Assembly: GCF_000192475.1 (NCBI RefSeq)
Contig: NZ_AEYW01000023.1
Span: 62,001 to 126,000, forward strand
Reading direction: 5' to 3'
Length of the DNA: 64,000 bases
Source: Ruegeria conchae
GTDB lineage: Bacteria > Pseudomonadota > Alphaproteobacteria > Rhodobacterales > Rhodobacteraceae
Shown here: positions 20,805 to 31,188 of the stretch, in pieces
Position numbering within the stretch: the first letter of the stretch is position 1
How the letters are laid out: every line of letters begins with the position of its first letter
Program-made: the position numbers and the translations under genes
The notes under the pieces: model-generated
Told to the model about the DNA's origin: nothing
Database searches by the model: none
The model's input: the letters and a program-made list of their open reading frames with translations, nothing else

Positions 20805-20879
20805 TGGGGTGTAGCCAAGTGGTAAGGCAGCGGTTTTTGGTACCGTGTATCGTAGGTTCGAATCCTACCACCCCAGCCA
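20805..20879 (+). tRNA. tRNA-Gln (UUG anticodon)
   Basis: A full cloverleaf can be drawn: acceptor TGGGGTG pairs with CACCCCA, the anticodon stem GCGGT/ACCGT encloses loop TTTTGGT with anticodon TTG at 20837-20839, and the T-arm GTAGG-TTCGAAT-CCTAC is perfect. The genome encodes the 3' CCA (20877-20879) after discriminator G. A terminator follows directly. Confidence 0.97.
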
Positions 20880-21101: not shown

Positions 21102-21476
21102 TTAAGTAAGTATTCGTCGCATCTCTCTTTGCAACGCCGCTCTGTTTCCTCGCGAACGTTTGTCTGTTGCCGCGGTGTGATTGATGCCGATCAGACGAGA
21201 CCTGGCTATAATCTGAGAATTCAGCGAAGCAAGCACGTCAATGCGCGGATTCTTCTTTGGAACGTCCGATTGGATCACGTAGCCTTCTTCGCGAAGCGTG
21301 TCCGCTTCAGCACCAAAGTCAGCGATCAACATCGAAATTTGCACCAAATGGATCAGGTCGGAAGGTTTCCAATCGTTGTAGGCGCGCTGTTCCTGCAGCT
21401 TTTCAAAAGTGTAATCGCAGTTCTTGCCGCCGAAATAGGCAACCCTTTGGTTATTGTTGGGTCGGGGTCGACCGGC
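21102..21476 (-). pseudogene. Remnant resembling a phage terminase small subunit (P27-like)
   Basis: The frame is open from 21476 down to the stop at 21102 but has no ATG or GTG start with a ribosome site; a neighbouring frame opens with an ATG at 21505, suggesting a frameshifted 5' end. The readable protein (FGGKNCDYTFEKLQEQR, then NDWKPSDLIHLVQISMLIAD, LREEGYVIQ, KKNPRIDVLASLNSQ) follows the pattern of P27-type terminase small subunits: Trp/Asp-Leu-Ile helix, EG-x-V, NPR, VL. Terminase small subunits bind phage DNA ends for packaging. No large subunit, portal or integrase remains nearby. It sits 3' of tRNA-Gln, a typical prophage integration site. The family call is from memory of the pattern and is moderately sure. 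Confidence 0.5.
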
Positions 21477-21544
21477 TCACGGCGAGTGTTGGGCAGCCTT
21501 ATCATGGTTGTTTAGCGGCAATGACGTTGGGACAGGTCTGGCGA

Positions 21545-22801
21545 TCAACCCACTGCTTCAATGTCTGCACCAGTTTCGCCGGCCAGCAATCGACCAAGGT
21601 GAAACAAGATCAAGGGGTCGTCTTCGCACTCGGCCAAAAGCGCCGCAAAGGATTGGCGCGCTTTGGGGTCACTCGCCTCTAGCAGCTCATACGCCGCCTT
21701 GTAATCTCTCACTTGATCGGTGTCGACAAGCGCCTCTGACAAGGGTTCATAGCAGGTCACCGCTTGCGTTTTGCCTTTCAGCAAGAGTCTTCCAATTGGT
21801 CGGCCAGAGAAGTTGTCGATCCCCTTGGCAACACTTTCCGAAGTGCAGATGCGCGTCCCTATCGTCTTGTTGGCCTGTTCCAGCCTTGCCGCAGTGTTCA
21901 CAGCATCGCCATACGCTGTATAGTCGAAATAGCTCTTGCCGCCGAAATTGCCAATGATCGCATCGCCGCTGTTCACACCTATGCGCGTGTCTCCCAACGC
22001 GATGCCGCGATCCAGTAGTTTCTTCTGAAAACCTTGGGCAAATTCGTCGAGCGCCAAGGCGCAGGCCACCGCGTGCGCGGCATGTTCCGGGTCGTCAACT
22101 GGCGCACCGAATATTACTTGGATGGCGTCGCCTATGATTTTCATGACTGTTCCGCCGTGCGAAAAGATTGTTCGGGTCATGCCATCTAGGTATTCGTTGA
22201 GAATTTCGACGATCAGGTCGGAATCCGAGCTTTCTACCAGCTGAGTGAAATCGGCCAGATCAGTAAATAGAAAGGTTGCTACGCGGCGCTCGCCCTTGGC
22301 CTCTATTGCCTCTGGATCACGCGACAACGTCTCAACCACCGTAGGAGAGAAATACCGTGACAGCGTCAATCTCGCTTGCTCAGCTTTATCACGGGCCGTG
22401 CGCAATTGGCGGAGCAACTCAAGGTGTTCCAGCGTCTTGGCAATGGTCCGGTCGAGATCTTCGAACTCGATCGGTTTGGTCACGAAATCAAAAGCCCCGC
22501 GGTTCATAGCCGCGCGGATATTGTTCATGTCGCCGTAGGCGGAAACCATAACAGTTTGCAGATCAGTTTCCATCTCGCTCAACCGGTCAAGCAAAGTGAG
22601 ACCATCCATCCTGGGCATGTTTATGTCGGAAAGGACGATATCTATTTTAGGGTTCTCTTCGAGAACTTCGAGGGCGTGTTTGCCGTCATGAGCAAACAAT
22701 AGATCGAGTTCCCCTTCGCGTACGCGACGCCGAAACTTTTGCGAAATCAACGCTTCAAGGTCGGGCTCGTCATCGACAACAAGAATGCGAGGCGGCGTCA
22801 C
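21545..22801 (-). CDS. Response regulator with class III adenylate cyclase output
   Basis: 418 aa. An N-terminal receiver domain (residues about 5-120; acidic D10/D11, phosphoacceptor D59, VSA near 86, K109) is joined by a helical linker (120-150) to a class III nucleotide cyclase domain (about 172-350). Both metal-binding Asps are present (FTDLADFT, D181; KIIGDAIQVIFG, D225), as are the adenine-selecting Lys (K221) and the Asn/Arg of VNTAARLE (N302, R306), so it should be an active adenylate cyclase making cAMP. Its ATG overlaps the stop of the REC protein upstream by 4 nt. Phosphorylation by the upstream PAS kinase, directly or through the small REC, is the likely trigger. Confidence 0.93.
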   Translation of the reverse strand: MTPPRILVVDDEPDLEALISQKFRRRVREGELDLLFAHDGKHALEVLEENPKIDIVLSDINMPRMDGLTLLDRLSEMETDLQTVMVSAYGDMNNIRAAMNRGAFDFVTKPIEFEDLDRTIAKTLEHLELLRQLRTARDKAEQARLTLSRYFSPTVVETLSRDPEAIEAKGERRVATFLFTDLADFTQLVESSDSDLIVEILNEYLDGMTRTIFSHGGTVMKIIGDAIQVIFGAPVDDPEHAAHAVACALALDEFAQGFQKKLLDRGIALGDTRIGVNSGDAIIGNFGGKSYFDYTAYGDAVNTAARLEQANKTIGTRICTSESVAKGIDNFSGRPIGRLLLKGKTQAVTCYEPLSEALVDTDQVRDYKAAYELLEASDPKARQSFAALLAECEDDPLILFHLGRLLAGETGADIEAVG

Positions 22802-23184
22802 GTCGTATCTCCGACAAATTGTGAGAGCCGCTCTTTCAGTTCAACAAAATCGACGGGCTTGGTCAGGAACTGTTCCGCTCCCAGTTCCCGGACTTTCGCC
22901 TCGGTCGCTGCATCAACATAGGCGGTGATCATCATAACCGGTAATTCAGGCCAGCGAGCGCGTAGCTCCTGCAAAAGCTCGATTCCTGACATCCCGGGCA
23001 TGTTGATGTCCGAAAGCACCAACATCACTTCTTCTTTCGAATGACTTATTGCGTCCAAGGCCGACTCGCCAGACCCGGCAAACCCAAAACTGTAGACTCC
23101 TTTTCGTATCTCCCGCCGAAAATTTTGTTGAATCAGGTCTTGTGCGTCGGGTTCGTCATCTACCATCAGAATTTGTCCAGTCAT
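22798..23184 (-). CDS. Single-domain response regulator (CheY-like REC)
   Basis: 128 aa consisting only of a receiver domain: acidic D9/D10, phosphoacceptor D59 in LVLSDINMPGMSG, Thr in MMITAY (about 87) and Lys in FLTKPVDF (about 109). There is no output domain, so it acts as a phosphoryl shuttle, sink or protein-protein switch. It overlaps the histidine kinase stop and the cyclase start by 4 nt each, placing it in the middle of a three-gene relay. Its receiver resembles that of the cyclase (shared SDINMP, FRR/KFRR), suggesting duplication. Confidence 0.95.
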   Translation of the reverse strand: MTGQILMVDDEPDAQDLIQQNFRREIRKGVYSFGFAGSGESALDAISHSKEEVMLVLSDINMPGMSGIELLQELRARWPELPVMMITAYVDAATEAKVRELGAEQFLTKPVDFVELKERLSQFVGDTT

Positions 23185-26100
23185 GCTAGGTCCCCCTGAG
23201 AATGAACCGGGACCGAAACGTCAAAAATCGTGTGATCCCCTGGCTTACTGTCCACAGTCAATGTTCCACCATGCTGCTTGACGATGGTATCATAGCTCAA
23301 CGAAAGGCCGAGCCCTGTGCCTTCACCCGCGGGTTTTGTGGTGTAAAACGGTAGAAAAATTTTCTCCCTCATTTCTTCTGGAATGCCCGTACCATTATCG
23401 CGAATAGTGACGTTGACGCGGTCACCATTGGCTCGCGTCGATAGCCAGATCGTCGGTGAAAAGTCACCTTCTTCCGCGTCTTTACGTTTGTTGGCCGCAT
23501 ACATGCCGTTGCTGATGAGATTAAGAAAAACACGCATCAAATCCTGCGGATAGCAATCGATTTGGCCAACGTCAGGATCAATGTCGGCTCGTATTTCGAC
23601 ATTGAAACTGGAATCCTCCGCCCGAGCACCGTGATAGGCAAGGTTCAGCGCTTCTTCTGCTATCGGGTTTAGTGCAACACGTTGCAACTCGCTTGGCCCC
23701 TCGCGGGAATGCAGAAGCATGTTTTTAACGATGCTGTCAGCACGTTGACCGTGTTGGTTTATCTTGCCCATGTTGCCGCGTACTGTCTGCCATAGGTCCT
23801 TAGCTTCCTCGCGATCCTCTTCCTCCAGAGCAGCGATCGGGTCTTCTAATATCTCGTGTAATTCTTCCATCAACTCGCCAGACAATTTGGCAAAGTTGTT
23901 GACGAAATTCAGCGGGTTCTTGATCTCGTGGGCAATGCCGGCAGTAAGTTGGCCTAGGCTGGCCATCTTCTCGGACTGGATGAGTCGTTCTTGGGCTTGC
24001 CGCAGATCGTTGAGGGCTTGTTCAGCCGCATCACGCGCGTTGGAAATCTCCGCTTCACGCCGTTTTAATTCGGTGATATCGAAATACGTCAGCATGCGAC
24101 CGCCATCCGGCAGGTCCACGCATTGGAAACTCAACGTCATGCCATCAGCCCGACACAACTCGCCCGGTGGCATGTTTCCTGCCCGTATTGCCTCGACCCG
24201 CATGGACAGCCAGTCATCCCAGTCTTTCGGCGCGACATCATAGACTCCTGTGCCCTTGTTGTACTCTATCAGCTCCTGCATAGTTGGGCGCTGGTCGATG
24301 AATTTCTGATCGATGTTCCAAATTCGCGCAAATGCCCGATTTATTATACGCGCACGTAAATCCGGTCCCATGAACAGAATTCCATAGTCGACGTGATCGA
24401 TGACCGCGTTAAATTCTGCCAGTGCCGCTTTCAGAGCTTCGTCAGCGAGTTTGCGGTCCGTAATGTCAGTGTAAGTTGCAACTAGGCCGCCACCTTGGAT
24501 AGGGTTGCCGATAATCTCAATCACCGTACCATCAGGACGAATACGTTCAAATTTGTGCGGTAAGAATTTTGCGGCCAGTTCCACCCGCTCGCGCACTTGG
24601 GTGTCAATGTCGCCCGGCCCATATTCCCCTCGTTCAGCATTGAACCGAAATGCCTCTTCCATTGTGAATCCGGGGCGAAAGCGTTCGCGAGAAAACTCCA
24701 TGAGGTCGAGAAATTTCGAATTCAACGCAATTGTGCGCAGCTCTTTATCCACCAGCGTAATCCCCTGGCCCATGTTCTCCATTGTTAACTCGAGGATTGC
24801 TGATTGTTGTTCGATCTCCAGCTGTTTGGTCTTCAGTTCGGTAATGTCGGTATAGATCGAGACGATGCCACCATCCGAAGTGCGGTGATCCGTAATCTGC
24901 AGCCAGTACCCGGCGACTAGCTGTTCGCGTGGTTCGCCCGAGGCTTTCATGCGCTTTTCGGCAATTCTCTCAAGATACCCTTCTACTTCTCCTTCGGAAA
25001 GTGGAAATAGGCCGCGCTTGATGCCGGCACCGATGATCTCTTCGAATTTCACGCCGGGTACGACCTTGTCGGCGAGTTCGCTCATGTAGGTGCGGTAGCG
25101 CTCATTACATACAGCTAGCCGATCCTCGGCATCCCACAATGCAAAACCAGACGAAATCGCTTCAATTGCGTCTTCAAACCGCTGCCGTGCGGCCTGCGCA
25201 TCTGCCTCCCTGCGTTTGAATTCGGTTATGTCGTTGTAAACCATGATGCGGCCACCATCAGGCAGGCGACGTTCGTTGAGCATGATCCACACACCGTTGC
25301 CCAACTCTAGTTCCCAGTTCGCCTTTGGCTTCTCCCAAGCGACGCGGCGGGCAGCGATCCAACCGTCAACGCCGTCTGGATGTTCGGTAAACATCCCAAG
25401 CTCATAGCCGTTGCGGATCATGTCGAAGAATTCGCGGCCCTCATAGATTAGGTTGCTCAAATCGGCGCCGCCAGCGGCGTCGCTGAAGATCTGGACGTAG
25501 CGGTCGTTGAATAACTCGACGCGATTTTCAGGTCCCACCAAAAGCAAACCATCGGCGATCGTTTCAATTGCTCCGAGTAGCCGACCTTCAATTCGGGCAA
25601 TTCGTTCCCGTGCATCCCGGATTTCAGTTATGTCGCGCACGGCACCGACAAGCCGGACGACCCGGCCTTCGGCGTTTCGCACACCAACGCCTCGGTCGTG
25701 AACCCAACGGTAACCGCCATCACGCGCCCTCTGCCGGTAGTCACATTCAACAGCATCAGTCTCGCCCTTGAAATGGTTAACGATTGCCTTGACATAAGCG
25801 TCGTAATCATCCGGGTGGATCTGCTCGGCCCATCGTTCCGAAGACGAATTGGCCTCGTCCAAACTGAGTAGATCGTTCAGGTCAGCAGAGACAAACAGAA
25901 CATCATTGGTCACGTCCCAATCATAAATTCCATCGCTGGTAGCTTGAGTGACCAACTGGTATCGTTCCTCACTTGCGGCAAGGGCTGCATCCCGTTCAAT
26001 CTTGGGTGTAATGTCCCGAATTGCGGCCACCATACGCGTCGCGTAGCCGTTAGTGTCGCGAATCGAGGTGCCGTGATCCGATACCCAGCGCCACTTGCCG

Positions 26101-26765
26101 TTAGCTACTTTGAGTCGGTACTCACATTCCCATCGTTTCTTCTCGCCGGATATATGCGCCTCCAACTCTGACAAGTAAGAGGGCAAATCGTCGGGATGAA
26201 TAATGTCTTGCCATACCCACGTTCTCTCTCCCTTAGGACCGGTCTCAAGCCCTAGGAAAGTCTCAAGTCGTGGGGACGCATAAAACTGGTCGTCGGTAAT
26301 ATGCCAATCGTAGATTGCCTCTTCCGCAGCGTCTGAAACAAGCGCGTAGCGCTCCTCACTTTCTCGCAATGCTCTCTCTGCTTTTCGTTCGGCGGTGCGG
26401 TCCTGATAGGTGACCATCGTTCCTCCAGAGGCCGTTCTGCGATAGCTGATCGCTAGAACCTGCCCGTCTGCCATCTCATGCTCGAGCGCGCGCTCACCAG
26501 AGGCACCAATCTCGTTCATTCGATCGGCCACTAGCCGATCAGTGTTGCCCGCGCCAAAATCTCCGCGTTCGGCATTGAAATGCAGCAAATCTTCTAGACT
26601 AACACCACGGCGGCAGAGCTCTTGTGGGTAGCGTCGCATCTCGCGAAATGCGGGGTTGCAGTAAACCAATCGGAGTGCGTCATTGAATATGCCGACACCA
26701 ACATCCAGAAGCGCAATACCTTCTTCGTACCTGTCTGCTTGGCTTTTTTGGTCAGCGCCATTCAT
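23181..26765 (-). CDS. Cytoplasmic sensor histidine kinase with about seven PAS domains
   Basis: About 1194 aa. Reading PAS starts from repeated patterns such as LLDVGVGIFN, RYALVSDAAEEAIYDW, RYQLVTQATSDGIYDW, AIETIADGLLLVG, AIEAISSGFALWD, MENMGQGITLVD and VIDHVDYGILFMG gives seven PAS modules over roughly residues 15-930. A coiled coil leads to the HisKA box (SLGQLTAGIAHEIKNPLNF) and a HATPase with DNGTGIPE and TKPAGEGTGLGLSL. No signal peptide or membrane helix is seen, so signals are sensed inside the cell. The ATG at 26765 is preferred (G-rich ribosome site) over an in-frame codon at 26876. It heads an operon with a REC protein and a REC-adenylate cyclase. Confidence 0.92.
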   Translation of the reverse strand: MNGADQKSQADRYEEGIALLDVGVGIFNDALRLVYCNPAFREMRRYPQELCRRGVSLEDLLHFNAERGDFGAGNTDRLVADRMNEIGASGERALEHEMADGQVLAISYRRTASGGTMVTYQDRTAERKAERALRESEERYALVSDAAEEAIYDWHITDDQFYASPRLETFLGLETGPKGERTWVWQDIIHPDDLPSYLSELEAHISGEKKRWECEYRLKVANGKWRWVSDHGTSIRDTNGYATRMVAAIRDITPKIERDAALAASEERYQLVTQATSDGIYDWDVTNDVLFVSADLNDLLSLDEANSSSERWAEQIHPDDYDAYVKAIVNHFKGETDAVECDYRQRARDGGYRWVHDRGVGVRNAEGRVVRLVGAVRDITEIRDARERIARIEGRLLGAIETIADGLLLVGPENRVELFNDRYVQIFSDAAGGADLSNLIYEGREFFDMIRNGYELGMFTEHPDGVDGWIAARRVAWEKPKANWELELGNGVWIMLNERRLPDGGRIMVYNDITEFKRREADAQAARQRFEDAIEAISSGFALWDAEDRLAVCNERYRTYMSELADKVVPGVKFEEIIGAGIKRGLFPLSEGEVEGYLERIAEKRMKASGEPREQLVAGYWLQITDHRTSDGGIVSIYTDITELKTKQLEIEQQSAILELTMENMGQGITLVDKELRTIALNSKFLDLMEFSRERFRPGFTMEEAFRFNAERGEYGPGDIDTQVRERVELAAKFLPHKFERIRPDGTVIEIIGNPIQGGGLVATYTDITDRKLADEALKAALAEFNAVIDHVDYGILFMGPDLRARIINRAFARIWNIDQKFIDQRPTMQELIEYNKGTGVYDVAPKDWDDWLSMRVEAIRAGNMPPGELCRADGMTLSFQCVDLPDGGRMLTYFDITELKRREAEISNARDAAEQALNDLRQAQERLIQSEKMASLGQLTAGIAHEIKNPLNFVNNFAKLSGELMEELHEILEDPIAALEEEDREEAKDLWQTVRGNMGKINQHGQRADSIVKNMLLHSREGPSELQRVALNPIAEEALNLAYHGARAEDSSFNVEIRADIDPDVGQIDCYPQDLMRVFLNLISNGMYAANKRKDAEEGDFSPTIWLSTRANGDRVNVTIRDNGTGIPEEMREKIFLPFYTTKPAGEGTGLGLSLSYDTIVKQHGGTLTVDSKPGDHTIFDVSVPVHSQGDLA

Positions 26766-27097
26766 ATCCAGTTCCCCCCCGTGGAGAAGAATGACTGAGT
26801 CAAAGAGTTTAGTCAAAAAACCAACCGTAAAAGCTTGGTTATAGTGAACACGAGCTCTTGTAGAAAGTTCTTGCAATTCAAAGGGTGACGTAGCTTACCG
26901 CTCCAGAGCTTACCAAGCCGACAAACCCGTTCCACCAGCCTTTAGGTCACGTGCGTTAGTTACGGCATCCCCGTAAGGTCCGCTTTGTCCCGCACAGCGG
27001 TCATTGAGGCAATACGCAGCGAAGGTTTGCTCTGAGCCCAAATCGACGGATGCTGCGCTGGGGTTAAATGTCCGCTTTCAGCGAGCTAAATCGGCGG
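26766..27097. other. Intergenic region between PAS kinase and repeat-protein gene
   Basis: About 330 bp without a convincing gene on either strand. Both flanking genes are read leftward, so it holds the kinase promoter region and the 3' end of the repeat-protein gene. The part near 26960-27060 resembles degraded coding sequence, but I cannot assign it. Confidence 0.4.
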
Positions 27098-28258
27098 TTA
27101 GTCTTCCATCGCTTCATAAATGCCTGTTTCGAGTTTGTTTTTAATTACGCTTAGCAGGCGCCTGGCAGCTTGTTCATCGTATGATTTCAGATCTAAAAAT
27201 TTCACAGCTGCTTCCAGTTCTGCGGCCGCTGCGGCTTTTCCTTTGGGGCCGAGACCTCTGATCTCTGGCGCCAATTTCTTAAACACCAACGACCGCAGCC
27301 TTAAGCGCATTTGATCCGCACCTTGTCCACCAGACGAGGTATTATAGTCGACACCGTCCGACCCACCCCCAACAGAGCCAGACGAGGTATTGTAGTCTAC
27401 GCCGTCCGAACCATCCTCAACAGAGCCAGACGAGGTATTATAGTCGACACCGTCCGACCCACCCCCGACAGAGCCAGACGAGGTATTGTAGTCGACACCG
27501 TCCGACCCACCCCCAACAGAGCCAGACGAAGTATTATAGTCAACTCCATCTGCACCCGCCGCCGCACTCGCCGATGGTAGTGGTTGGGTTGGCTTTTTTC
27601 GGGCCGGTGGGTCCAGTTTTGAAAACGTCCCGTTTGCAAGCTTGGCCGTAAGCGACTTGATTAAACGCTTCGCGATATCGGCATCGAAGTTTTCTTTATC
27701 TATTGCTTTGGCGACTTCGTCCAACTCTGGCTCGGCTTGCGCACGCCCTTTTGGTCCGAGGTCGCGAACCAGCGGTGCAAGTTTACCCATGACCAATCGC
27801 ACAAGTTTTTGTCGGTCGTCATCGTTGTCTTCGTCGTCTGCTAATATGGCGTTACCATAGTCAGCGGTGGATGTACCTAAAGCACCGGCGCTAGGTAATT
27901 TTTGGGTCGGTTGGCGAACCGGGGGTACAACAGAGGCTGCATCTTGGTCGTCAGACAACGAAGCTGCCATGTCAATATTAGCCACCTTTAGAGTGCAAAT
28001 TCCGCTAAGTTGTTTGTTTAACTTGTCGAGAACCTTCCCTTTAATTTTGTTTGGGTCCTCTGCGCAAAGGGTCACCGTTTTACCTTTTGTCACGATCTTT
28101 CCGCGAGTTATTTTTTTTCCTGGTACCGAAACTTTCTCATCGTCGCCAAATGCTACGAGATGAAAGCTGTCTTTCAAAACCTTGTGGTTGGTCAGAATGA
28201 AATTAGTCGCACCACCCTTGGTTTTCGCGCCAAACGCTGTCTTTTCTTTGTCTTTCAA
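27098..28258 (-). CDS. Unknown protein with duplicated helical domain and a GVDYNTSSGS repeat linker
   Basis: 386 aa from a TTG at 28258 (AAAGGA lies upstream; an in-frame TGA closes the frame just before, so no longer start is possible). Parts seen: an N-terminal beta-rich region (about 10-95); a first module starting with PTQKLPSA (117-124), a DYG motif, an acidic run DDEDNDDD, and a helical domain (149-212) with MGKLAPLVRDLGPKGRAQA; a second module starting PTQPLPSA (223-230), a five-copy 16-residue repeat GVDYNTSSGSVGGGSD (about 238-310), and a second helical domain (317-383) with FKKLAPEIRGLGPKGKAAA. The helical domains are clearly homologous to each other. No signal peptide or membrane helix. 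I do not recognise the family. Its upstream neighbour region is gene-poor, and the next genes downstream on the strand are the PAS-kinase operon. Confidence 0.8.
   Translation of the reverse strand: MKDKEKTAFGAKTKGGATNFILTNHKVLKDSFHLVAFGDDEKVSVPGKKITRGKIVTKGKTVTLCAEDPNKIKGKVLDKLNKQLSGICTLKVANIDMAASLSDDQDAASVVPPVRQPTQKLPSAGALGTSTADYGNAILADDEDNDDDRQKLVRLVMGKLAPLVRDLGPKGRAQAEPELDEVAKAIDKENFDADIAKRLIKSLTAKLANGTFSKLDPPARKKPTQPLPSASAAAGADGVDYNTSSGSVGGGSDGVDYNTSSGSVGGGSDGVDYNTSSGSVEDGSDGVDYNTSSGSVGGGSDGVDYNTSSGGQGADQMRLRLRSLVFKKLAPEIRGLGPKGKAAAAAELEAAVKFLDLKSYDEQAARRLLSVIKNKLETGIYEAMED
27330..27555. repeat. 48-bp in-frame tandem repeat, five copies
   Basis: Units start at 27330, 27378, 27426, 27474 and 27522, an exact 48-bp period; the last is partial (to about 27555). 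Copies differ at a few, mostly silent, positions (for example TATTATAG versus TATTGTAG). Each encodes 16 residues of the linker of the unknown protein. There are no unique spacers, so this is not a CRISPR array. Confidence 0.95.
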
Positions 28259-29063
28259 CCTTTGATCCTTTCATGTCTGCCGCCCATTTCATTCAGTCAC
28301 GCGTGTCATTTAATCTCAACAGCTTTCTCATAATGATGAAAGGTGAATGTGACTTTGCGAGTGGCTCCCTAGTTCTTCATAAATAATCTCTACTGAGGGC
28401 TCAAAAGTCCGTTGATCATTGACGAAGGGGTGAAAAATCGCAGCGGCCACAATAAGAGGCTACTTTCCATATTTCTTAAGCAGCAGATGCATCGGTTAAA
28501 TGCGCTGCTGCATCCGCTAAGTCCCGACAAGCAAGAACGAAGTAGATCAAGCTTGATCTGAACGCGGAATTTGCGCCCATTGTGCTCAAGTTCGGTTTTG
28601 TCCGCTTCGCGGTTGTTCAGATGCACTGCCGCGAACGTCTGCTTCGAGTTTAGAGCTGACTTCGGCGAAGTCCGCGGCATCGGTCGTCAATTGCGGATCA
28701 AAGGCATTCTCTTCAGCTGCAAAGCCAACTGATCAATTGAGTGAAAGCTGACACTTGATTTGCCGGAGATCCATGTTCAGCTCTGTCCCGGAATGACAGA
28801 AACCATGCTTTCAATCCTCCACGGAGGGTGTCCAAATACTCCGTATTAGAAATTGGCCCTCAATAAGAATAAACTGAGCGCTAGTGCCGATCTCCACCCT
28901 GGGCAAGGGCTCAAGTTAGGGCGATGAACGGCCTCGATGCCATGCTGGTTCAACAGTCCGGTTCGTCCGAATGTGAGAAATTGGTGCGCGCGGCAGCGAA
29001 GGTGAAGTTTGCGTCCGGCGACAATTTTCCATCGGTAGAACCAGACAGAATGGATATACCTAA
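28259..29063. other. Gene-poor, probably decayed region upstream of the transposase remnant
   Basis: About 800 bp where short open frames on both strands show no recognisable protein pattern, ribosome site or operon logic. The left end should contain the promoter of the repeat-protein gene. The right end leads into a broken transposase, so part of this may be insertion-sequence debris. I cannot define terminal inverted repeats. Confidence 0.4.
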
Positions 29064-29415
29064 GTGTACCCCGCCTCAAAGAAGCTTGAGATCATCCGCA
29101 CGGTCGAGGCACCGCACCTGCCAACCCGGCAAACCCTGAAGATGCTCGGCATCCCCAGCAGCACATACTACGACTGGTATGCCCGCTGGAGCGATGGTGG
29201 TGTCGATGCCCTGGCTGATCGTTCGCCACGGCCCAAGTCAGTGTGGAACCGCATCCCGGACAAGGTACGCGAGGATGTTGTCGATTTTGCCCTTGAGCAT
29301 GAAGACCTGACGCCGCGCGAACTGGCGGTCAAATACACCGACGAGAAGCGGTACTTCGTCTCGGAAGCATCCGTTTATCGCATTCTCAGCGCCGAGGATT
29401 TGATCACGGCACCGG
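29064..29415 (+). pseudogene. 5' fragment of an integrase-type (rve) transposase
   Basis: The reading frame encodes the N-terminal helix-turn-helix portion of an IS3/IS481-like transposase: YPASKKLEIIRTVE, LPTRQTLKMLGIPSSTYYDWY, then WNRIPDKVREDVVDFALE, LTPRELAVKYTDEKRYFVS and SVYRILSAEDLITAPA. It ends abruptly near 29415, where the catalytic DDE core should begin, and the sequence continues as an antisense piece of a xylulokinase gene. A TAA stands immediately before the GTG at 29064, so the natural start is also gone. It is thus truncated at both ends and cannot be active. Confidence 0.85.
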
Positions 29416-29417
29416 CC

Positions 29418-30041
29418 CAACGAAACTGTGGCCGTCAAACACTTGCGGCGGCCAGTCGAGCGCCACACCAGTGGCTTCCGCGATCCCGATATGCCAGTTG
29501 CGCGAAGCCTGATCGAGCCACATTGTTCCCGCAGCATCGGACGCATCGGTTGCCAGTTCACCATGCAGGCGTGGACCGATGTAGTCTTTGGGCAGCAGGA
29601 TATGGGCAAGCTGGGCATAGTGACCGGGTTCATTCTGTTTCAGCCAAGAAATTTTGGGGGCAGTAAAACCGGGCAACGGAAGGACACCCGCAATATGACC
29701 AATCTGCGGCAGGGCTACGCGTAGTTCATCGCATTCGATTGCGGCCCTGCTGTCATTCCAGAGGATTGCCGGGCGGATTGGGCACAGCGTACGATCCAGC
29801 AAAACGGCCCCGTGATCTGTCCGGACAAACCGACGGCCTTCGCCTCTGACAGTGGGATTTGCTCTGCAAGCTGCTTCAATGCGTCGCGCGTCGCCTGCCA
29901 CCAAAGGTCTGGGTGCTGCTCTGACCAACCGGGTTGCGGCGAGGACGTCTCGATCCCTGCAGAAGATATCGCAAGAATACGATCAGTATCCGCGCAGACA
30001 ATCTTGACCGCCGACGTTCCGATATCAATCCCGAGATACAT
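29418..30041 (-). pseudogene. xylB: Truncated and frameshifted xylulokinase
   Basis: The ATG at 30041 starts a FGGY-kinase N-terminus (MYLGIDIGTSAVKIV, then EAKAVGLSGQ). At 29814/29815 one base is missing relative to the expected GLSGQMHGAVLLD codons: restoring a G between 'CAGAT' and 'CACGG' on the minus strand rejoins the frame, which continues as HGAVLLDRTLCPIRPAILWND through LPKDYIGPRLHGELATDASDAAG to about 29418. There it meets the transposase fragment; roughly the C-terminal half is absent. Xylulokinase would phosphorylate D-xylulose made from arabitol/xylitol. It is divergent from the LacI regulator, as expected for a member of the polyol regulon, but is now inactive. Confidence 0.88.
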
Positions 30042-30092
30042 TTTTACCCCTCGACCTGCACAAACGTCCGGAACTTGTCTTACTCTTGATTT

Positions 30093-30107
30093 TTTATCGC
30101 GCGTAAA
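30093..30107. promoter_or_regulatory. Putative LacI-family operator 1, TTTATCGCGCGTAAA
   Basis: A near-palindrome in the intergenic space between xylB and the LacI gene. It agrees at 14 of 15 positions with the sequence at 31197-31211 before smoE. Repeated occurrence at both promoters flanking the regulator gene supports an operator of that regulator. Confidence 0.7.
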
Positions 30108-30162
30108 GAATATGTAAAAATAGGATAAGATCAAGACGGCTATGATCCGCAGGCAGACTGGC

Positions 30163-31188
30163 ATGACTAAGATTAAGAATATGGAAGAGTTTGCGGCCCT
30201 CAGCGGCATCTCGCGGCCTACGGTATCCAAATACTTCCACGATCCCGACAGCGTTCGCCCAACGACAAGGGCGCGTATCGAAGAGGCGCTCGAACGGTTT
30301 GACTATCGCCCGAATATCTATGCTGTAAACCAGAACCGGAAGTTGACCAAGAATATCGGCATCGTCGTGCCCTATCTGGCCGATCCGTTCTTTGCCGAAA
30401 TCGCGCGCTATCTGGAGCAAAGCTGTATTGCGGCAGGCTATCGCCCTTCCCTTTTTAGCGCCCACGGAGAACAAAAGCTGGAAAACGAAATTCTGGATGG
30501 GCTGCAATCCATGAAGCCCGCCGGGGTTTTGTTGGCACCCCTGGGTCGGATTTCAGACCGATCGGCGATTGAGAAGTTCTGCGTCAATGTACCGACTGTT
30601 CTGTTTGACAGTAACCTTGATGGGCTGGGTGCCGCGTTTATCGGATCGGACAATTTCAGCTTTGTGTCTCAGACAGTTGAATACATGACCCGGACGGGCG
30701 AGCCTCCATCATTCTTTGAAATGCGCACACCTGCGAACCCAAACGCCAACAAACGAAGGAAGGCCTATGTCGCCATGATGGAGCGCCTCGGGTTCGAGCC
30801 GCATATCATCAAAGTCGACGGGAAAGGATGGGCTTTCGAAGAGATTGGGCACAGAGGCGCGCTGAAAGTTCTTGAAGAGCGTGAATTGAAAACGAACTCC
30901 GTTCTGTGCAGCAATGACCGGCTGGCTATTGGCTTTCTTGCGGCCTGCTATGAACAGGGGATTCGGGTCGGCCGGAAGGAGGGCTGCACGCTGCGCGTGG
31001 CCTCAAATGACGATCATCCGTTCGCAAAGTTTACGTGCCCTTCTCTGACGACAGCCGCACATGACTACGACAACGTAGCCAGCCGAAGCGTCGAAACTTT
31101 ATTCGAACTTATTGAAAACGGTGGAAAATTTGAATCACGAACTGAGACACTTTTCCCCGCTCGACTTGTTTTAAGGGACTCTGCGTAA
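30163..31188 (+). CDS. LacI-family regulator of the polyol (smo/mtlK/xylB) genes
   Basis: 341 aa from the ATG at 30163; another in-frame ATG at 30142 is possible, and neither has a strong ribosome site. The N-terminal HTH (MEEFAALSGISRPTVSKYFHDPDSVRP) is LacI-like with an unusual KYF in place of the common RALN/RVLN. The periplasmic-binding-like sensor half (NIGIVVPYLADPFFAEIARYLE... VLCSNDRLAIGFLAACYEQG) follows. It lies between the xylB remnant (divergent) and the smo operon (same strand), and matching operators occur in both intergenic spaces. It probably represses both and responds to a polyol, which is an inference. Confidence 0.9.
   Translation: MTKIKNMEEFAALSGISRPTVSKYFHDPDSVRPTTRARIEEALERFDYRPNIYAVNQNRKLTKNIGIVVPYLADPFFAEIARYLEQSCIAAGYRPSLFSAHGEQKLENEILDGLQSMKPAGVLLAPLGRISDRSAIEKFCVNVPTVLFDSNLDGLGAAFIGSDNFSFVSQTVEYMTRTGEPPSFFEMRTPANPNANKRRKAYVAMMERLGFEPHIIKVDGKGWAFEEIGHRGALKVLEERELKTNSVLCSNDRLAIGFLAACYEQGIRVGRKEGCTLRVASNDDHPFAKFTCPSLTTAAHDYDNVASRSVETLFELIENGGKFESRTETLFPARLVLRDSA

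Follow-up and report, generated by a model that had tools for sequence, protein, structure and literature searches.

An orphan gene of Ruegeria conchae encodes a modular protein with a duplicated helical module and a tandem array of DGVDYNT motifs

The described systems nearest to the protein considered here are proteins whose linkers carry arrays of short linear motifs; the dimerisation domain of glutamyl-tRNA reductase (GlutR_dimer, PF00745); and the IS110/IS1111 transposases, which carry a RuvC-like (DEDD) N-terminal domain (PF01548) and a C-terminal Transposase_20 domain. The protein (P0001) is the product of an orphan gene on the reverse strand of a 64,000-nucleotide stretch of Ruegeria conchae DNA (contig NZ_AEYW01000023.1, positions 62,001 to 126,000), which we call the window throughout and in which the gene occupies positions 27098-28258. 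This is a real, very rare bacterial gene, and its protein, which stands well above noise, forms a nearly unique orphan family. The protein is modular: a basic N-terminal region is followed twice by a linker and a helical module.

Architecture of the protein and its repeat array

The gene is an intact open frame that runs for 386 codons from a TTG start preceded by AAAGGATCAAAGG; because an in-frame TGA lies 18 nt upstream, this TTG is the first start of the gene. No signal peptide was seen by eye in the protein. Its two helical modules (Table 1) can be aligned without gaps at 40% identity, with a Smith-Waterman score of 131 against a maximum of 48 among 1000 shuffles, so that the duplication proposed in a preliminary description of this DNA is not a product of chance. 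Each module is preceded by a PTQxLPSA motif and a DYx motif. In the structure model, helices are predicted at residues 144-165, 169-186, and 193-208 for module 1 and at 313-334, 338-355, and 362-378 for module 2, with block means of the predicted local distance difference test (pLDDT) of 74-84 in residues 151-210 and 321-380, and below 50 in 97-143 and 218-312.

The second linker contains the repeat array. DYN recurs at residues 240, 256, 272, 288, and 304, a spacing of exactly 16 residues or 48 bp, and Tandem Repeats Finder, run with a minimum score of 50, reported the array at 27330-27541 (period 48, 4.4 copies) as its sole row in the 64 kb. The five units of exact 48-bp period that had been described earlier are confirmed, and the array is not due to chance. 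In the fifth unit, the period is held over the first 10 codons, after which the unit merges into helical module 2. Across the four full units and these 10 codons there are 10 variable DNA sites, of which eight are silent. On random mutation of the consensus, the mean number of replacement sites was 7.1, and two or fewer were obtained in 0.055% of 20,000 trials (P about 0.0006), in a test that assumes independent sites and ignores conversion between units. Thus, with replacements rarer than expected by chance, the repeats are most likely translated in the frame of the orphan gene, with the peptide under selection.

A comparison with the single homologue found, an unnamed protein of 398 amino acids (P0003; sources lgn and ena), points in the same direction. 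The two proteins are 73% identical over their whole length and share the same architecture from end to end, with a conserved C-terminus, DGVDYNT units, and a PTQ motif ahead of both modules. P0003 differs in having four units (DGVDYNTSTGSAGGTP, DGVDYNTFSGSVEHGS, DGVDYNTSTGSVAVGS, and DGVDYNTSSSDQGSDQ) against five, two DYG motifs in the first linker (PDYGKAIPADPETPDYGNAIFADD) against one, and a frame that is open 17 residues further upstream. Given these 17 extra residues relative to the TTG start of P0001, the annotated start of P0003 may be too early. DGVDYNT is kept in all nine units of the pair while the spacers differ, which makes it the fixed core of a unit that varies in number, and the earlier expectation of a variable unit number is borne out by the counts. 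The accompanying claim that only the second module copy had expanded its motif is true of P0001 and fails for P0003, in which the motif of the first module is doubled too.

These observations bear on the possibility that the gene is a spurious or non-functional open frame. Such a frame would fit the scarcity of relatives, the TTG start, and the fact that promoter-like sites (3 against 1.8±1.4) and terminator-like sites (2 against 2.8±1.7) are no commoner than in shuffles. However, the 386 codons stay open where the remaining two frames of the strand hold 20 and 23 stops, silent changes prevail across the repeat units, and the frame is also open in P0003 at 73% identity. We therefore consider a spurious frame very improbable. 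The preliminary description had raised the prospect that the frame might be broken in all close relatives; in the sole homologue found, it is intact.

Table 1. Segments and motifs of the orphan protein and their positions in the window
Feature	Residues	Window position	Strand	Properties
N-terminal region	1-96	27971..28258	(-)	basic, net +10, pI (isoelectric point) 9.8; beta/alpha predicted at low confidence
First linker	97-148	27815..27970	(-)	acidic; PTQKLPSA, DYGNAI, acidic run; pLDDT <50 for 97-143
PTQKLPSA	117-124	27887..27910	(-)	
Helical module 1	149-216	27611..27814	(-)	predicted three-helix bundle, LGPKG turn
PTQPLPSA	223-230	27569..27592	(-)	
Five 16-residue units DGVDYNTSSGSVGGGS (48 bp)	237-312	27323..27550	(-)	acidic, net -12; pLDDT <50
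Helical module 2 to C-terminus	313-386	27101..27322	(-)	predicted three-helix bundle

Affinities of the helical module and the N-terminal region

The native protein has no match above cut-off in Pfam, PHROGs, NCBIfam, or PADLOC, and the search of PDB sequences gave nothing better than an expectation value (E) of 1, in agreement with the earlier statement that no described family has this layout. Likewise, no described relatives were found here for the DGVDYNT motif or for the helical module. The sole match to recur is GlutR_dimer: the whole of P0001 reaches E 1.3e-4 and 22.7 bits, just under the Pfam gathering cut-off of 22.9, P0003 reaches E 0.0061 and 17.3 bits, and the modules of P0001 taken singly reach E 0.029 and 0.034. 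An artificial join of both modules, which is not a native protein, reaches E 6.3e-6 and 26.9 bits, with a match to GlutR_dimer in none of nine shuffled versions. The weak similarity covers profile positions of about 22-78 for module 1 and 21-70 for module 2. On the other hand, Pfam finds no other GlutR domain in the orphan protein, and the structure searches returned generic three-helix bundles, with no GlutR among the 50 matches listed in each. The helical module is thus predicted to form a three-helix bundle whose likeness to the GlutR dimerisation domain is borderline, and it makes no clear match to a family of assigned function such as the preliminary description had allowed for.

The N-terminal region raises the question of a transposase ancestry. 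In a family search of 394 genomes, it weakly matched the N-terminus of an IS110-type transposase (L015; E 0.004 per genome), and with transposon debris nearby it can be asked whether the gene is a domesticated or remnant mobile element, its N-terminus descending from the RuvC-like domain of an IS110/IS1111 transposase that gave up the first catalytic aspartate and became joined to the helical modules. Several comparisons favor this. Residues 3-65 score 74 against L015 in a Smith-Waterman alignment (shuffles 27.0±4.9; 0 of 2000 as high), and for four other members of its subgroup between 0 and 16 of 2000 shuffles score as high. A profile of the five-member subgroup gives the top two ranks of 4002 to the orphan proteins, over 4000 shuffles, and residues 17-52 exceed all 2000 shuffles in eight of eight comparisons. 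The local match has the form KD-FH-V-F...KKI-R and extends over about 35-60 residues.

Nevertheless, L015 was picked as the best of the weak matches across the 394 genomes, where its E value is about chance level, and so tests on the same stretch are not independent. The ranking also weakens as the profile changes: without L015, the subgroup profile places P0003 1st and P0001 3rd of 4002; a wider IS110/IS1111 profile places the orphan proteins 11th and 73rd of 4002; and a 31-locus profile, an imperfect one in which at least three rows (L033, L040, and L043) are not transposase N-termini, places them 55th and 103rd among 884 sequences listed. The likeness is not continued past residue 52, the global score of residues 53-100 being reached by 68% to 99.7% of shuffles in eight comparisons, and residues 1-100 give no Pfam match up to E 10. 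The strand (S/G)(I/V)DIGK bearing the first DEDD aspartate is missing from the orphan (LTNHKVLKDSFH, against SVSIDIGKDVFH in L015 and VIGVDIGKETFH in L029), so that this catalytic residue is absent. A second transposase domain is lacking too, as Pfam does not detect Transposase_20 in P0001 up to E 1 or in P0003 up to E 10. The likeness of residues 3-65 to the IS110 N-terminus is accordingly unproven, and a transposase remnant is an unlikely explanation of the gene.

Distribution and genomic surroundings

Among 5.8 billion clustered proteins, the searches retrieved two clusters only, namely the window's own (P0002, with three member sequences on two contigs) and P0003. The same two were obtained with the whole protein, the N-terminal region, and the first linker plus module 1, in searches that depend on 5-residue words in common and on a comparable protein length, and that could miss a module carried by a distant protein or by one of much smaller or greater length; in the whole-protein search, the best 7994 candidates by shared words were scored. 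A search of 60 other genomes, of which 36 belong to the genus, did not find the protein, and a class-wide search of 384 other genomes did not find the helical module. A DNA search of 53 other genomes of the genus, with up to five candidates scored in each, gave four matches outside the gene's own genome, all beside the gene and none inside it, and the accessory location proposed earlier is upheld. Scans of IMG/VR with P0003, and of genome collections with P0001 and A1, yielded no confirmed relative, with a few exact peptide stretches being sought in each case; one genome-collection pattern began with Met, though the gene starts with TTG. Family searches of 393 other genomes returned only weak matches, three in one search and four in another, which we take as chance. 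Six of these seven frames were inspected (L015, L017, L019, L020, L021, and L022): by reading, L021 is antisense to a histidine-kinase frame, and the composition of L019 and L022 resembles that of antisense frames.

Downstream on the same strand lie genes for a PAS sensor kinase, a response regulator, and a response-regulator/cyclase. A tie between these genes and the orphan gene, which the preliminary description had left to be checked, does not hold. Kinase matches at E <= 1e-100 are present in four of 54 genomes of the genus, the window's own included, one of them a partial match (58%), and two relatives (G033 and G072) carry the whole kinase/response regulator/cyclase block at 98% DNA identity without the orphan gene. 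The gene is therefore a neighbor of the operon and not a member of it. The similarity stops at window position 26998 in one relative and at 27041 in the other, and different genes follow; in G033 (contig 10, L008, 17536-19320), a gene that reads as cyclase-like takes the orphan gene's place. The block common to both relatives spans 21412-27041 of the window, their flanks differ from the window's, and it looks like a transferred block.

On the other side of the gene are a fragment of an IS481-type transposase (29064-29666; HTH_32 and LZ_Tnp_IS481) and, at 29404-30230 on the reverse strand, the N-terminal domain of an FGGY sugar kinase, which is split across two overlapping frames and hence apparently belongs to a broken gene. 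The latter adjoins genes for a LacI-type regulator and a solute-binding protein. A tRNA-Gln gene (ttg) lies at 20805-20879, with 0.5 kb between it and the shared kinase block and 6.2 kb between it and the orphan gene. Two short stretches flanking the gene are probably dispersed intergenic repeats: 26975-27072 has weak copies in its own genome (71-83% over 41-98 bases) and in G033, and 28593-28687 has weak copies in G020 and G029. Further away, part of window 40000-64000 matches eight plasmid records with an identity of 74-79% across no more than 19% of the query; four are from Ruegeria, and the others are from further genera of Rhodobacteraceae.

The adjacent transposase and sugar-kinase fragments, the tRNA-Gln gene, and the lack of a DNA match to the gene in the 53 other genomes of the genus would suit an accessory factor of a horizontally acquired mobile island, acting in defense, in counter-defense, or as a secreted effector. 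Yet searches of 72,556 plasmid records and of 50,697 phage records gave no match to the gene, and none was confirmed in IMG/VR; its PHROGs matches are just E 0.056 and 1.4, PADLOC gives none up to E 1, and the 3' end of the tRNA has no second copy in the window with up to three mismatches allowed. We regard such an island factor as rather unlikely.

Proposed role and comparison with known systems

The reading that we tentatively favor, while giving it somewhat less than even weight, is that of a functional, rarely distributed multivalent adaptor, which we take to be cytoplasmic and which would self-associate via its helical modules and display DGVDYNT docking sites. Under this proposal, the two modules would either link copies of the protein to one another or contact a single partner twice, and the flexible linkers would present a short D-Y-(N/G) motif in several copies to a partner that binds them with avidity. 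The basic N-terminus could anchor the assembly to an acidic partner, possibly a nucleic acid. The number of docking sites would set the avidity, and a changed unit number would thus tune binding strength. The alternation of basic and acidic segments along the protein (net charges of +10, -9, +4, +3, -12, and +3) would also let the linkers fold back onto the basic domains.

The same motifs could instead mark a substrate hub of a Hanks-type Ser/Thr kinase, with the threonine of PTQxLPSA being phosphorylated and read by an FHA-like domain, and the DYNT array supplying additional sites. PTQ-type sites would suit Hanks-type kinases; in both homologues, a PTQ that follows a basic residue at a distance of one to three places recurs before both modules; and the genome has two Pkinase (PF00069) matches. 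However, these matches are on other contigs, neither of them near the orphan gene, and LPSA is just partly kept in P0003 (VPSA and LPPV). We find a kinase substrate distinctly doubtful. More speculative still is a new family that would have arisen when a transposase-derived N-terminus was joined to a dimerisation-type helical module, present in duplicate and accompanied by an evolving DGVDYNT docking array; the product would be a young multivalent scaffold whose unit number differs between the only two lineages known, and this we hold to be improbable.

The orphan protein is one of many lineage-restricted proteins and of modest interest as such. Its silent-site bias nonetheless points to selection at the protein level despite practically no relatives, and one pair of proteins, P0001 and P0003, displays both a duplication within the protein and a changed number of repeats. 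If the motif array of the proposed adaptor is indeed a docking platform, the pair would offer a way to ask how new scaffold proteins arise. In this respect, the orphan protein may be likened to proteins with motif arrays in their linkers in general, as both bear tandem motif copies, variable in number, in a flexible linker.
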